DNA of 32,419 nt, taken from the IMG/VR virus record IMGVR_UViG_3300019889_000027, positions 1 through 32,419 of that record. The stretch is one strand, 5' to 3'. Every line of letters starts with the position of its first letter. Position 1 is the stretch's first letter. This stretch comes from a virus. The notes beneath the pieces are model-generated. The model saw only the letters and a list, made by a program, of their open reading frames with translations, made no database searches and was not told where the DNA came from. The translations under genes and the position numbers were made by a program. Positions 16,083 to 31,450 of the stretch are shown here, in pieces.

Positions 16083-17114
16083 ATGGCAACGCAACTTTCA
16101 GAGCTCCCCGCCCAGGAAGGCACGCCGCGGACGTTCGCGCCCGGCATCTACTACGACGTCCCAGCCACCGAGTACCACGCAGCCCCCGGGCTCAGCAATA
16201 GCGGCATGAAGGACCTGGCGATCTCGCCGCTCCGCTACTGGCACCTGCACATCAACCCGAACCGGGAGAGCAAAGAATCCGACGCGATGGACCTGGGCAC
16301 AGCGTTCCATTGCGCGGTGCTCGAACCGGAAAAGTTCGCCTCCTCCTACGTCCGCTCGATCGCGGCCGCCGACTACGAAGGCTGCCTGATTACGATGGAC
16401 GACTTACGGGAGTGGGCCAAGGGCCAGGGGATCACATTCACCGCGCGCACGAAGGCCGACATGGTGAAGGTCATCCAAACCTTCTGCCGCAACCAGGGAG
16501 TCGCCGAGCCACCCATCCTCGATATCCTGCGCCAGGCGCACACGGCGCAACACCAGGGCAAGACGGAGCTTTCCAGGGAAGAATGGGATCGCGTCCACGG
16601 CATGGCCGAAGCACTGCGCTCGGAAAAGTCCATCGCGCCCATTCTCAAAGAGGGACGCGCGGAGGTCTGCGTATTCGCGCGGGATCCGGCGACGGGCGTG
16701 TTGCTCAAGTCCCGGCTGGATTGGATTTCGGACGCGACCACGGTCGACCTGAAGAGCTTCTCGCAGAAGAACGGCCGCTCGATCGACCGGTCGGTCACCG
16801 CCGCGATCGCTTACGAGAGCTACTACCGGCAGGGTTATTTCTATACGCTGCTGCGCAGCCTGCACGGCGTCAAGAAACAGAAATCGGTGATGGCGTTCGT
16901 CGAATCCGACACGCCGCACGAGGTACGCATTAAGGAGTTCACGCCCGTCGCGCTCGGCGAGGCAAACGTGTATTGGGGCCGGGCGAAGCTCGAAGTGCAA
17001 TCGCTGATCAAAACCTACGCCTGGTATCAGAAGGAGTTCGGCACCGCCCCCTGGCGTGCCGCACAGACAATCGAAGTCCTCCGGGACGAGGAGCTGCCAA
17101 ATCTGGCTTACTAA
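16083..17114 (+). CDS. PD-(D/E)XK exonuclease, RecE/DUF3799-like
   Basis: 343 residues. The start YDVPATEYHAAPGLSNSGMKDLAISPLRYWHLH, then MDLGTAFHCAVLEPEKF (His in the GxAxH motif), is typical of DUF3799/exodeoxyribonuclease VIII C-terminal domains. The catalytic triad region KSRLDWISDATTVDLKSFSQ supplies the D...DLK of the PD-(D/E)XK fold. It resects double-stranded ends to give 3' single strands for phage recombination. The next gene, an AAA/RecA-like ATPase, is the expected partner. Confidence 0.85.
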   Translation: MATQLSELPAQEGTPRTFAPGIYYDVPATEYHAAPGLSNSGMKDLAISPLRYWHLHINPNRESKESDAMDLGTAFHCAVLEPEKFASSYVRSIAAADYEGCLITMDDLREWAKGQGITFTARTKADMVKVIQTFCRNQGVAEPPILDILRQAHTAQHQGKTELSREEWDRVHGMAEALRSEKSIAPILKEGRAEVCVFARDPATGVLLKSRLDWISDATTVDLKSFSQKNGRSIDRSVTAAIAYESYYRQGYFYTLLRSLHGVKKQKSVMAFVESDTPHEVRIKEFTPVALGEANVYWGRAKLEVQSLIKTYAWYQKEFGTAPWRAAQTIEVLRDEELPNLAY

Positions 17115-20388: not shown

Positions 20389-20634
20389 ATGCCCTGTAAT
20401 CACGTCAAACTTCCCGGCGGCGCCACAGCCATCATCTGCAGCCGATCAGCGCCGCGCAAACGTTGCGTGACTTGTGGACTGCCTTCGAAAGTGCTCTGCG
20501 ACTATCCCGTAACGAGCAACAAGTCGGGAACATGCGACCGGCCTTGTTGCAAGCAACATTCGCAGAACATCGGGCCGGACCAGGATTACTGTCTGGCGCA
20601 CGCCAGTTTAGGGACGGGGAGCGGCAAAGGATGA
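20389..20634 (+). CDS. Small Cys/His-rich zinc-binding protein
   Basis: 81 residues with C and H placed as zinc ligands: MPCNHVKLPGG..IICSR..RKRCVTCG..SKVLCDYPV..GTCDRPCCKQHSQ...YCLAH. This is a treble-clef-like arrangement seen in small phage proteins. It abuts the previous stop directly. No specific function can be given. Confidence 0.6.
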   Translation: MPCNHVKLPGGATAIICSRSAPRKRCVTCGLPSKVLCDYPVTSNKSGTCDRPCCKQHSQNIGPDQDYCLAHASLGTGSGKG

Positions 20635-22307: not shown

Positions 22308-23357
22308 GTGACAGAAGAGCTCTATTACTACACCTGGTTTACCGATCGCTGGCAATTGTCGCAGGCGCGCGTCGAGATGAACCTCGCCGAGCGTGGCCTG
22401 TACCGCGAGCTGCTCGACTATTTCTACACGAACGGCTCGCTGCCGGCCGACGAGGCTACCCTGGCTCGCATTGTGGGCGCGCAGGCGGCCGAGTTTCGTC
22501 GCGCCTGGAGGAAAGTATCCGGCTGGTTCGCTCCGGACGACACAGGGCGCCTTGTTTCAGCCGCCGGCACCGACCTGCGCAACGGTCTGCTGAGGGAATT
22601 GAATCAGCGGCGGGCTGCCAGCCAACGCGGCGGCGAGGTGACCCGAGATCGCCATCGGGGAGGGCCGGGGGAGGGCCGGGCGGCTAGGCCGGGAGACAGG
22701 CCGAGACCAGGGCCGGGAGGGGGGCCGGCGGCCTGGCCGATACCGGGGCCGGACAGGGAGCCGAGGGCAGGGCCGGAAGCTAGGCCGGTGGGTGGGCCGG
22801 CAGGGGGGCCAACTGAAGACTTAAGACTTAAGACTAAGAAAGAAAACCTTACGGCGTCTGCCGACGCCGCCGGTTTTCGCGGGCGCGCGGGGTTAACTGC
22901 GCTCCAAAAGCATACCGCAAACGAGCAGGGGGCGGCGGCGGCAAACCCGCCCGAAGAAATCGCCACGAAAACGCCTGAAAACACAACGATTCTGCCCGAG
23001 ATCCGCGAGCTCGTCGATGCCCTGCATGCCCGGCATATCGAGCCCGGAAACCCGGCGAAAGCCTACGGCGAAGCCCAGGCTGCGTTTGCCCAGAGCGGCG
23101 ACACCTGGCCGGCGTTTTCTGCGATGATTGGCCGGCATTTCCTCGAGTGGAGCGAGTTCTGGCAGCGCAAACGAGAGCGCGATTCGGAAGCGTTTGTGCC
23201 CCAGCTCTGGCGCTGGTTTCACTCGGCCGAGTACATCGGCAAGCCGTCGGACGAGGCGCAGCACAGTCGCAAGCGGGCCTCGAAAACTGAATTTCTCGAT
23301 CGCATCGCCAAGGGCGAGATCGACGTGAACGGCCGCCCGATCGAGGTCCACCGGTGA
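22308..23357 (+). CDS. DUF1376 (YdaU-type) replication protein with internal repeat array
   Basis: 349 residues, GTG start. The N-terminal DUF1376 domain (YYYTWFTDRWQLSQARVEMNLAERGLYRELLDYFYTNGSLPADEATLARIVGA) is a winged-helix-like module of phage replication organisers. A Pro/Gly linker of four-residue periodicity (about 118-168) is encoded by 12-bp iterons. The C-terminal domain (about 225-349, ELVDALHARHIEPGNPAKAYGEAQAAFAQSGDTWPAFSAMIGRHFLEWSEFWQRKRE) is helical and probably recruits helicase or loader. Such a build resembles lambda O: initiator with its own origin inside. Confidence 0.8.
   Translation: MTEELYYYTWFTDRWQLSQARVEMNLAERGLYRELLDYFYTNGSLPADEATLARIVGAQAAEFRRAWRKVSGWFAPDDTGRLVSAAGTDLRNGLLRELNQRRAASQRGGEVTRDRHRGGPGEGRAARPGDRPRPGPGGGPAAWPIPGPDREPRAGPEARPVGGPAGGPTEDLRLKTKKENLTASADAAGFRGRAGLTALQKHTANEQGAAAANPPEEIATKTPENTTILPEIRELVDALHARHIEPGNPAKAYGEAQAAFAQSGDTWPAFSAMIGRHFLEWSEFWQRKRERDSEAFVPQLWRWFHSAEYIGKPSDEAQHSRKRASKTEFLDRIAKGEIDVNGRPIEVHR
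22663..22818. repeat. 12-bp GGCCGG iterons inside the DUF1376 gene (putative origin)
   Basis: GGCCG-type cores start at 22663, 22674, then 22687, 22699, 22711, 22723, 22735, 22747, 22759, 22771, 22783, 22795 and 22807: eleven consecutive units in exact 12-bp register plus two slightly shifted. Consensus GGCCGG followed by six variable, purine-rich bases. One unit (22759) reads AGCCG. The array codes for the Pro/Gly linker, so a protein-level repeat is the alternative explanation. Confidence 0.75.
22816..22850. repeat. AT-rich 7-bp repeats next to iterons (candidate unwinding element)
   Basis: AAGACTT, AAGACTT, AAGACTA run from 22816 to 22836, then AGAAAGAAAACC. In a gene otherwise well above 60% GC, this abrupt AT-rich block beside an iteron array resembles a DNA unwinding element. 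Confidence 0.5.
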
Positions 23358-23773
23358 CGGGCGAATGGTCTCCGTCTAAGCCAATTCTGTGCATTGATTT
23401 TGACGGCGTGATTCACGCTTACACCTCGGGCTGGAAGGGGCCTCTGGTGATACCGGATGACATTACGCCAGGGTTCTTTGAGTGGGCTGAACAAGCAGCA
23501 CAGCATTTTCGCCTAGTGATTTATTCTTCGCGGTCCAAAGAGCCGAAAGCAGCCGAAGCAATGCTCTTGTGGCTGTATCAGCAGCGGAAGAAATGGCGCG
23601 CAGACGGTGGCCAGCACGAGATCGATTCACCACTCAGTTTCGAATTTGCAGATGAGAAGCCGGCCGCCTTTCTGACCATTGACGATCGCGCGCTGTGCTT
23701 TACCGGGAATTGGTCTGACTTTGATCCAGAGTTTTTGCTCACATTCAAGCCATGGAACAGGGAGCCGAAATGA
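23354..23773 (+). CDS. HAD-like phosphatase
   Basis: 139 residues, GTG start overlapping the previous stop. Motif I ILCIDFDGVIHAY (the DxD nucleophile and acid), motif II VIYSSRS, and motif IV FLTIDDRA are in the expected order for a small HAD phosphatase without a large cap. Phages carry these for nucleotide or 3'-end phosphate removal. The substrate cannot be read from the sequence. Confidence 0.8.
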   Translation: MTGEWSPSKPILCIDFDGVIHAYTSGWKGPLVIPDDITPGFFEWAEQAAQHFRLVIYSSRSKEPKAAEAMLLWLYQQRKKWRADGGQHEIDSPLSFEFADEKPAAFLTIDDRALCFTGNWSDFDPEFLLTFKPWNREPK

Positions 23774-24240
23774 TCACCGCACAGCAAGCATCGCAGTTTG
23801 TCAAACGCTTCAGCGCGCTGCGAGATTTCAAGAGCGAACCGGAAGCGCAGCGCGAGCTCATCCTCGCGTTGCAGCAGTCCGCGCAATCGATCGACCATGC
23901 AGACGTGATCGTCACGCAATGGCTCGAGTTCGGCCGCTTTGCGCCGACGCCGGCGGATCTCTACGAGGTCGCCGCGCGCACTCGCCAGCCGGCTCCGGAG
24001 AACGCATGCCGGCAATGCGACGGAACCGGTTTTGCGCAGGGTTATCTCGAAGTAACGGTCGATGACCAGGGCCAGCCCCATGAGCGAGCTATTAGCCACC
24101 AGGAGTACCGGGAGCGTCTGCGCGGTCCTGGACCGCGGGTCTACCAACAAGTGCGCCCGTGCCCGGCGTGTCGCGCGGGAAAGCCGCAACTGGTGCCGCA
24201 GGCGCCGGACGGGAAGGCTGCCGGAGCGGGCCGCGACTGA
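23770..24240 (+). CDS. Replication-region protein with CxxC zinc motifs
   Basis: 156 residues from the ATG at 23770 (ATGA overlap). The helical N-terminal half (ASQFVKRFSALRDFKSEPEAQRELILALQQSAQSIDHADVIVTQWLEFGRFAPTPADLYEVAART) is followed by CRQCDGTGF and RPCPACRAG, a DnaJ-like CxxCxGxG / CxxC zinc pair. Its position after the DUF1376 gene and an N-terminal half like helicase-loader accessory proteins suggest a loader role, which is inference. Confidence 0.6.
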   Translation: MITAQQASQFVKRFSALRDFKSEPEAQRELILALQQSAQSIDHADVIVTQWLEFGRFAPTPADLYEVAARTRQPAPENACRQCDGTGFAQGYLEVTVDDQGQPHERAISHQEYRERLRGPGPRVYQQVRPCPACRAGKPQLVPQAPDGKAAGAGRD

Positions 24241-24690: not shown

Positions 24691-25077
24691 TCACGAAATC
24701 TTTTCGCCGAGCCAAGCGACGAATTGCTCTTCAGTCACTGTTCCGCTATCGGCAACCCCGAGCATGATATCGATTACTGCTTGTTCATCGATCTCGACAA
24801 CGACGCCATTGATCTCCAGAAACGTGGCACCCACGATCCAACCAGTGCGCTTGTTGCCGTCGACAAATCCGTGATTGTTGGCAATCCCAAACACGTACGC
24901 GGCCGCCAACTCCAGTAGGCTGCCTGGTTGGGAATAGTGAAACAGATTTTGAGGGCGGGCCAGCCCTGATTCAATAAGCGCATTCTCTCGAATGCCTGGC
25001 AGCCCGCCATGTTCTGCAATCTGAGCGTCGTGGATGGCCAGGACAACGTCGTAGCTAATCCACTCCGGTTCGATCAT
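24691..25077 (-). CDS. doc: Doc-type (Fic fold) toxin
   Basis: 128 residues. The Fic/Doc motif H69-G-F-V-D-G-N-K-R-T (HGFVDGNKRTG) is preceded by the usual Doc N-terminus (ISYDVVLAIHDAQIAEHGGLPGIRENALIESGLARPQNLFHY). The lysine in GNKR is the Doc form; P1 Doc phosphorylates EF-Tu. It acts in the cytoplasm and is neutralised by the AbrB-like antitoxin encoded upstream, whose stop overlaps its start (ATGA). Convergent to the early operon. The short Fic domain lacks an inhibitory helix. Confidence 0.85.
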   Translation of the reverse strand: MIEPEWISYDVVLAIHDAQIAEHGGLPGIRENALIESGLARPQNLFHYSQPGSLLELAAAYVFGIANNHGFVDGNKRTGWIVGATFLEINGVVVEIDEQAVIDIMLGVADSGTVTEEQFVAWLGEKIS

Positions 25078-25298
25078 TTCGCTAAGGCGTGAAGGGCGTT
25101 TCTATAGCGCTTCATTACGGATTCGGCGGCCTTCATCTGGCGCTCGAAAACGGGGTTATACGGGGTGAGGCGATACCCTTCCGGAGATTCGGTCAGGTAT
25201 AGGGCATCCCCATCGTGAATTTTCAACCGGTCAGTAACCTCCCTCGGAAGGGTAACCCCGGTTGAATTGCCGACTGCTCTGGCTTTTAAAGTGATCAT
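25074..25298 (-). CDS. AbrB/MazE-type antitoxin of the Doc locus
   Basis: 74 residues from the ATG at 25298 (GGGAGGACC upstream supports it; the frame opens earlier, at 25400). MITLKARAVGNSTGVTLPREVTDRLKIHDGDALYLTESPEGYRLTPY is a SpoVT-AbrB swapped-hairpin DNA-binding domain. The helical C-terminus FERQMKAAESVMKRYRNALHALAK would clamp the toxin. AbrB-like antitoxin first, Doc second, with overlapping codons, is a common pairing. Likely autoregulates its promoter in 25299-25400, where TATACACATGTTATA is a weak inverted repeat. Confidence 0.8.
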   Translation of the reverse strand: MITLKARAVGNSTGVTLPREVTDRLKIHDGDALYLTESPEGYRLTPYNPVFERQMKAAESVMKRYRNALHALAK

Positions 25299-25552
25299 AA
25301 TCGGTCCTCCCGGCTCGTTGACCGAATCCGAATATACACATGTTATAACACGAAACCTGCCGTTTTGCTCAGAAATTTGCAGGGAAAGTGCGCTTACCAA
25401 TTAGGAAGATTCTTGTGACCGTGTCTTTAGGCGGCGGCCACGGCCCGCAGCGCCGCGCTGGACTAGTGTTCAGGAATCACTCCGAAAGTAGTCCACCTCA
25501 GTAGTCCGCTCTCAAATCGGACAACTGAAACTCGCGAAGGGAAAGGTTCACT

Positions 25553-30733: not shown

Positions 30734-31450
30734 ATGATTGTGGTTGTAGGGGGGATAAAGGGTGGCAGCGGCAAGACTACCGCGGCAACAAACCTCGCCG
30801 TGATGCGCGCCACCAGCGGAGTGGACCTGTTGCTGGTCGACGCCGACGGTGATCAGGAGACAGCTTACGACTTCACCCAGCAGCGCAGCGAGCGCATGGA
30901 TGGCGACGCCGGCTATACGACGATCAAACTCGACGGGGCGGCGGTCCGGACGCAGGTCTTGCGCCTCGCCGACAAATACGAGGACGTGATCATCGACACC
31001 GGCGGCCGGGACAGCACCAGCCAGCGAGCGGCTCTGGGCATCGCCGACCTTCTCCTGGTACCCTTCGTGCCCAGGTCCTTCGATATCTGGACACTGGAAA
31101 AGGTCGCCCAACTCGTCGGCGAAATGCGGCAAGCCAATCTCAAGCTCAAGGCGTGGACGTTCCTGAACCGGGCGGATCCGCGCGGGCAAGAAAACGACCT
31201 GGCTGCCGAGGCGCTTAAGGATGCGCCAGGCCTGGAATTCATCAACGTGTCGGTAGGCACTCGCAAGGCGTTCGGCAACGCCGCGGCCGAGGGCCTGGCT
31301 GTCCACGAGCTCAAGAATCCGGACCCGAAAGCGGTCGAGGAAATATCGGCTTTGTATAGTCATATTTATGGCGTATCCTGGACGTCCGGCGTGACGTCCA
31401 AGGGGGCGTCCAGTCAGGCGTCCACAGGGACACCCAAGGGGGCATTGTAA
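30734..31450 (+). CDS. parA: ParA-family partition ATPase
   Basis: 238 residues, RBS GGGAG. Deviant Walker A KGGSGKTT (about 9-16), LLLVDADGDQETA (about 34-46), and DVIIDTGGRDS (Walker B, about 85-95) define ParA/MinD. There is no N-terminal HTH, so it is the small type that works with a small DNA-binding partner rather than a ParB of the large type. The last 23 residues (from about 216) have four-residue periodicity and coincide with iterons. The downstream RHH gene is the likely adaptor. Confidence 0.9.
   Translation: MIVVVGGIKGGSGKTTAATNLAVMRATSGVDLLLVDADGDQETAYDFTQQRSERMDGDAGYTTIKLDGAAVRTQVLRLADKYEDVIIDTGGRDSTSQRAALGIADLLLVPFVPRSFDIWTLEKVAQLVGEMRQANLKLKAWTFLNRADPRGQENDLAAEALKDAPGLEFINVSVGTRKAFGNAAAEGLAVHELKNPDPKAVEEISALYSHIYGVSWTSGVTSKGASSQASTGTPKGAL
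31380..31439. repeat. 12-bp iterons in the 3' end of parA (5 units)
   Basis: GGACGTCC, TGACGTCC, GGGCGTCC, AGGCGTCC and GGACACCC start at 31380, 31392, 31404, 31416 and 31428, exactly 12 bp apart. They encode the C-terminal TSG-TSK-ASS-AST-TPK repeats of ParA. Confidence 0.75.

Follow-up and report, generated by a model that had tools for sequence, protein, structure and literature searches.

Does a phage gene with a DUF1376 domain carry, inside its own coding sequence, the origin from which the phage replicates? The question arises from the window, the whole stretch of DNA analyzed here, which is the complete IMG/VR virus record IMGVR_UViG_3300019889_000027 (32,419 bases) and in which an earlier note had read a repeat array within such a gene as a candidate internal origin. 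That reading is supported by the layout of the locus and by its relatives; replication from the site is inferred, not shown. The locus comprises the following features.

22308 to 23357, plus strand: DUF1376 gene (the window gene), an open reading frame with a GTG start encoding 349 amino acids; Pfam PF07120 at E 2e-9, PHROG "primosomal protein" at E 1e-6
22326 to 22529, plus strand: DUF1376 domain, from the Pfam match and structure model; predicted winged-helix-like fold
22602 to 22658, plus strand: basic stretch NQRRAASQRGGEVTRDRHR, residues 99 to 117, from sequence and model; closes a long predicted helix
22662 to 22811, plus strand: 13 iteron-like units with core GGCCG and 12-bp spacing, from motif count, randomization, and codon-position analysis
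22811 to 22850, plus strand: AT-rich island of 40 bp (70% AT), a putative DNA-unwinding element by inference, with three AAGACT(T/A) heptads at 22816 to 22836
22995 to 23309, plus strand: C-terminal helical domain, residues 230 to 334, common to the HTH_36 initiators L002 and L003, from model and sequence match
23752 to 24240, plus strand: conserved neighbor with a Cys-rich motif, which also adjoins the HTH_36 initiator in L002 (35% identity over 92 amino acids)

The window protein scored 38.1 bits against PF07120, for which the gathering score is 30.1, and so meets DUF1376 membership. In the structure model, the long helix spans residues 85 to 117, and the linker between the DUF1376 domain and the C-terminal helical domain, which encodes the array, is predicted to be largely disordered. 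Only DUF1376 was found by the Pfam scan at E ≤ 0.001; since the protein has no match to the Phage_rep_O family, it is not classed here as an O protein, only as one that would work like it. No helicase or loader gene was recognized beside the window gene. Elsewhere in the record are genes for a ParA-like ATPase (30734 to 31450, plus strand) and for a Fic/Doc toxin and a MazE-like antitoxin (24691 to 25077 and 25074 to 25400, both minus strand), and the record may therefore represent a phage able to live as a plasmid. Cumulative GC skew, a check that the earlier note had suggested, reached its raw minimum at 20571, 2.1 kb from the array, and its detrended minimum at 16554, a signal too weak to use on a linear fragment.

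Iteron-like repeats inside the window gene

Eleven exact copies of GGCCG lie between 22600 and 22900, at 22663, 22674, 22687, 22699, 22711, 22723, 22735, 22747, 22771, 22783, and 22795, and two units with one mismatch each, AGCCG at 22759 and GGCCA at 22807, bring the total to 13. The 11 units from 22687 to 22807 follow one another in exact 12-bp steps with unbroken register, and the unit at 22674 is one base out of register and read in another frame. AAGACT then recurs in 7-bp steps at 22816, 22823, and 22830, in an island whose AT content (0.70 at 22811 to 22850) compares with 0.19 in the array and 0.26 immediately after the island. The earlier note had claimed 13 GGCCG-core units, 11 of them in perfect 12-bp register, with three 7-bp AAGACT(T/A) repeats directly after the array, at 22663 to 22850; coordinates and counts were correct, provided that one mismatch is allowed in two units.

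The 12-bp period keeps the reading frame, so that for the window gene the frame by itself does not tell whether DNA or protein is being conserved. Codon positions are more informative. Across the 11 in-register units, mismatches to the consensus number 2 of 55 in the 5-bp core compared with 36 of 77 in the other 7 bp, and third codon positions are changed in 1 of 22 cases within the core compared with 12 of 22 outside it. In 4 of the 11 units, the first core codon differs at its first position (AGG, GGG, or TGG, giving Arg, Gly, or Trp). With core third positions frozen while first positions vary, it is the DNA rather than the protein that looks conserved.

Chance was assessed by 20,000 randomizations of each kind: redrawing of codons from phage usage with the protein fixed, shuffling of codon order, and synonymous permutation within the linker. 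Ten exact cores in one register were obtained in 0 of 20,000 redraws with the protein fixed (the best reached 7) and were never matched by codon-order shuffling (20,000), and the cores in register had a p value of 0.008 under within-linker permutation. For the 7-bp array of the window, the corresponding results were 0 of 20,000 with phage codon usage, p = 0.002 by codon-order shuffling, and p = 0.14 by within-linker permutation. By this strictest test, the AAGACT heptads of the window are less secure on their own than the GGCCG cores.

Relatives of the window protein were found neither in annotated phages (by protein or distant DNA search) nor in plasmids (by protein search), and its N-terminal domain alone matched in phages only at E ≥ 0.07. 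Two partners in IMG/VR share the C-terminus only, with none found there for the N-terminus, and genome contigs yielded no relative of the gene. A pattern of four GGCCG units retrieved at least 120 stretches, among them a single DUF1376 gene (L205), whose array is not GGCCG. No other DUF1376 gene with a GGCCG unit having been found, the window iteron is unique within the data searched, and both it and the Pro/Gly linker are peculiar to this record. The AAGACT heptad was also considered as a family signature and ruled out: it occurred in 25 stretches, just 3 of them in DUF1376 open reading frames and all three on the opposite strand. In the DUF1376 genes L290, L293, and L301, the AAGACT heptads run antisense to the gene (QSSVFSLQSS), an orientation opposite to that in the window.

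Linker arrays across DUF1376 genes and beyond

DUF1376 genes were gathered from IMG/VR, genomes, and phages. For lag analysis, 116 of 120 genes were used (four open-ended genes were dropped), giving 81 non-redundant linkers, and a linker passed at a given lag when its self-match was at least 17/21. At lag 7, 57 of the 81 linkers passed, compared with a fraction of 0.0002 of codon shuffles; at lag 11, 16 of 81 passed and none of the codon shuffles did. Most other lags were almost never passed, multiples of 7 excepted. Within the same viral loci, lag 7 was passed by 78 of 106 DUF1376 genes and by 0 of 357 other open reading frames. Neither 7 nor 11 is divisible by three, which rules out a repeated peptide as the explanation for these periods. 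The earlier note had proposed that relatives be compared for a DNA period conserved while residues vary, and the relatives pass: 7- and 11-bp periods recur in DUF1376 linkers and are almost absent from neighboring genes.

Examples of the 7-bp array include AACCACA/AACCATA, which encodes NHKPLTINHKPI, and AAGCCAG, which encodes KPEARSQKPEA. A blind search of IMG/VR for five consecutive AACCA(N2) units gave at least 120 stretches, and of 120 examined, 117 fell in DUF1376 open reading frames; two others are in DUF1376 frames judged by eye to be truncated (L358 and L368), and one is unrelated. Because the pattern was taken from DUF1376 genes, this result shows specificity and not discovery.

An even draw of Pseudomonadota contained DUF1376 in 29 of 398 genomes. 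It gave 32 matches besides the seed, 28 of them testable; L140 (masked) and six loci missed by the profile were omitted from a first set of 23. Among the missed loci, L154, L156, and L157 were recovered together with L555 and L557, L161 belongs to the search of another phylum, and L158 and L159, like L556, remain outside the count. Linker repeats at p < 0.005 were present in 18 of the 28 (13/23 in the first set and 5/5 in the recovered set), and the other 10 linkers had no significant repeat at that threshold. The array-in-linker layout, general among DUF1376 genes, is thus shown for most of those tested, many across bacteria. In one gene of this family (L134), the basic motif is immediately followed, within the linker, by what seems to be an inserted domain (GYLYAV...KVGIT..., resembling T5orf172/GIY-YIG by eye).

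Arrays in linkers are not confined to this family. Lin1244_N genes of Bacteroidota (L532 to L553) carry them too, which extends intragenic arrays beyond DUF1376: open reading frames were found for 13 of 23 loci, one of the 13 lacked a linker region to test, and 11 of the 12 testable linkers had repeats at p < 0.005, although half came from one genome. Furthermore, the HTH_36 initiators L002 and L003 have 24-bp arrays in their linkers.

When the model of a DUF1376 relative (L023) was compared with known structures, winged-helix proteins made up most of the best matches (highest Z 6.5; rmsd 3.2; 69 residues aligned, residues 15 to 87). Foldseek gave no match at E ≤ 0.001, and sequence comparison with solved structures gave only weak, unconvincing matches. 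Links to replication come from the surroundings of the genes. Directly downstream of DUF1376 relatives, 100 of 147 open reading frames were scanned; about a fifth encode DnaB-like helicases (8) or P-like loaders (10) by PHROG, and Pfam identified DnaB_C in 8, IstB in 2, DnaA in 2, and lambda P in 1. The GC-skew minimum lies 138 to 2204 bp from the DUF1376 gene in five of six complete phages and 12.3 kb away in P19250A. These minima are supporting evidence only, since in some phages the minimum is also near a transcription switch and the skew of small phages follows transcription too. Genes for Mom-like DNA modification were also seen directly downstream of 5 of 100 DUF1376 genes (for example, the A7 neighbor at L022:2215-2868).

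Pairing of basic motif and iteron

In relatives, the DUF1376 domain is followed at once by a basic motif, which closes a long predicted helix (residues 78 to 108 in L023) and belongs to one of five classes: AGKASAERR (K; AGKxSA), GGRPKK (G), A..RW (W), ARNAN (N), and KRIA.ERE.KRK (R). Among 191 non-redundant genes, 165 were classed (64 K, 46 G, 42 W, 8 N, and 5 R) and 26 were not. GTTCAAC is present in 54 of 64 K genes and absent from every other classed gene (0/46 G, 0/42 W, 0/8 N, and 0/5 R; 0/101 together); 1 of 26 unclassed genes has it. AAACCCA is present in 36 of 46 G genes and in no other class, and GCAATGC is present in 26 of 42 W genes and 1 of 26 unclassed genes. Motif and iteron are never cross-combined among the 165 classed genes. 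Of 54 pairs of adjacent GTTCAAC units, 46 are spaced by 11 bp; the units use all three frames (50, 48, and 10) and lie 7 to 103 nt from the motif. The coupling also holds between genes whose domains are less than 30% identical (7.1 versus 3.6 shared 6-mers).

Motif classes and iteron words were defined after the data had been seen, which gives weight to a search in the opposite direction. IMG/VR was searched blind for pairs of GTTCAAC units at an 11-bp distance; of 120 loci, 22 were already part of the gene set and were left out, so that 98 new loci were counted. DUF1376 open reading frames contained 68 of 99 sites, 61 of them with the K motif by regular expression; of the seven exceptions, six have a motif variant by eye and one is truncated. 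Among the other 31 sites, 13 go with a K motif in proteins of another family, identified as Lin1244_N for both of the two tested, one is in a truncated DUF1376 gene (L500), and 17 look like chance. In 398 Pseudomonadota genomes, the strict K iteron pattern GTTCAACNRNCGTTCAAC had one match, outside any recognizable DUF1376 gene, so that K iterons in their strict form are less common in cellular genomes than in IMG/VR. At about 1501 to 1518 of L427, from a genome without a detected DUF1376 gene, two K-class iterons stand alone in what could be the remnant of a prophage.

Natural swaps were found as well. The Rhizobium-type gene L100 (K) and its relatives L104 and L108 (W) have a nucleotide identity of 0.76 to 0.98 through the domain, which falls to 0.38 to 0.44 over about 30 codons holding motif and iterons and returns to about 0.8 to 0.9 from the tail on; L100 and L104 have about 96% of the domain in common. 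The domains of L098 and L105 are 99% identical and their motif-iteron pairs differ, as does the rest of the gene. In relatives, basic motif and iteron sequence therefore go together and swap together. From this coupling we infer, without contact data, that the motif helps to read the iterons and that the two form a self-addressed cassette.

The window fits none of the five classes, by either its basic stretch or its GGCCG iteron, and would thus represent a further motif-iteron pair. Its basic stretch occupies the place of the class-specific motif of relatives (AGKASAERR, GGRPKK, ARARW...), an equivalence inferred from position.

Proposed origin function, rival explanations, and known systems

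We consider it likely that the DUF1376 gene encodes a phage replication initiator and that its linker is an intragenic origin resembling that of lambda O, although data on replication or binding are lacking for all DUF1376 proteins. The array, its conservation at the DNA level, the AT-rich island, and the presence of the same layout in most DUF1376 genes are shown. The window has every part: the domain, a basic stretch at the helix end, iterons, AT-rich heptads, and the C-terminal domain of HTH_36 initiators. In the proposed mechanism, the N-terminal winged-helix domain and basic stretch would bind the GGCCG row, with one protein per roughly one turn of DNA; the resulting nucleoprotein would strain the AT-rich island of 40 bp beside it, where the 7-bp repeats lie, until the island opens; and the C-terminal domain may then recruit the replicative helicase or its loader.

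A bolder reading, on which the evidence leaves us evenly divided, takes DUF1376 and Lin1244_N genes together as self-addressed origins. Here a basic motif of about 10 residues would read the 11- or 12-bp iterons that follow it, the 7-bp array would serve DNA opening, and phages would trade a cassette of about 90 bp as one piece, even across N-terminal domains that are not related, so that origin specificity would change while the rest of the protein stays untouched. At least five motif-iteron pairs would exist, with the window (GGCCG with RRAASQRGGEVTRDRHR) as a further one. Recognition itself remains inferred.

Three rival explanations were considered. The one that survives best, although we think it unlikely, is that motif and iterons are coupled merely because adjacent DNA is inherited together, with no physical recognition between them. 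Motif and iterons are neighbors, so any recombination patch takes both, and the classes were set after looking at the data. However, the coupling persists at less than 30% domain identity, with iterons that differ in frame and whose distance from the motif ranges from 7 to 103 nt; it recurs in a second N-terminal family; and no cross-combination occurs among the 165 classed genes. Given the second family, the different frames, and the low domain identity, recognition is the better reading.

Alternatively, the arrays may bind the DUF1376 protein without being an origin, serving autoregulation, copy control, partition, or packaging, which we regard as very unlikely. Autoregulation and copy control are known roles of iterons elsewhere, and the ParA-like gene in the record makes partition conceivable. 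Against this, the arrays of the family have an AT-rich repeat tract beside them, many relatives have a helicase or loader gene as a neighbor, the skew minimum is near the gene in five of six phages, and an operator deep in a coding region would be odd. Also very unlikely is the view that a flexible Pro/Gly-rich linker grew by replication slippage, leaving the DNA repeats as a mere by-product of recent tandem duplication. In its favor, the 12-bp period of the window keeps the reading frame and yields a protein repeat of the form xPxx, and biased linker codons account for part of the regularity (within-linker p = 0.008 for the cores and 0.14 for lag 7). Against it, third positions of the core hardly change although its first positions and the outer 7 bp do, unit 22674 is out of frame, and the 7- and 11-bp periods of relatives occur in all three frames, with lag 7 in 0 of 357 neighboring open reading frames.

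If the initiator reading is correct, a domain annotated as of unknown function is assigned one, for a large set of temperate phages the origin can be marked from sequence alone, and a place to look for oriJ of the Escherichia coli Rac prophage is predicted. Paired motifs and iterons would also allow a test of whether initiator specificity is rewired by a single short exchange. Should the bolder reading hold, a readable protein-DNA code would lie side by side within one gene.

Origins inside initiator genes are already known from lambda O and P1 oriL. In lambda and Stx-phage O genes, 4 to 6 iterons of about 19 bp are followed by an AT-rich tract mid-gene (PMC7466680). The earlier note's comparison with lambda O is apt in layout: both genes have central iterons then an AT-rich tract, and the order of DNA-binding domain, linker, and C-terminal domain is predicted for the window, with a winged-helix-like N-terminus and a disordered linker. 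The likeness consists of binding-site-like repeats between the N- and C-terminal domains with an AT-rich tract adjoining, a matter of layout only, without binding data. Unlike lambda O, the window has 13 units of 12 bp (11 bp in relatives), a tandem 7-bp array, and DUF1376 as its N-terminal family. In P1, oriL has been postulated inside the initiator gene repL, and synonymous changes in an AT-rich stretch impair replication (PMC9948254); an iteron array and motif-iteron pairing are not described for oriL in the relevant parts of that paper. The HTH_36 initiators L002 and L003 share the C-terminal domain of the window protein and have linker arrays, and L002 also shares the neighboring gene, but their N-terminal domain is different and their 24-bp array sequences are unrelated to GGCCG.

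The Rac prophage is said to have an active origin, oriJ (PMC3945230). Its protein YdaU belongs to the DUF1376 family and carries a motif of the K type, with GTTCAA repeats in the gene, and ydaU adjoins ydaV, which is annotated as a putative ATP-binding protein and which we take to be DnaC-like. That oriJ lies within ydaU is a prediction only. No origin in DUF1376 genes or ydaU is described in the open-access literature searched (most subscription journals were outside the search); in one paper that names DUF1376, it is merely listed as a domain. As far as we searched, what is new relative to these systems is the placing of the DUF1376 and Lin1244_N families as putative initiators, the 7-bp array, and the pairing of motif with iteron.
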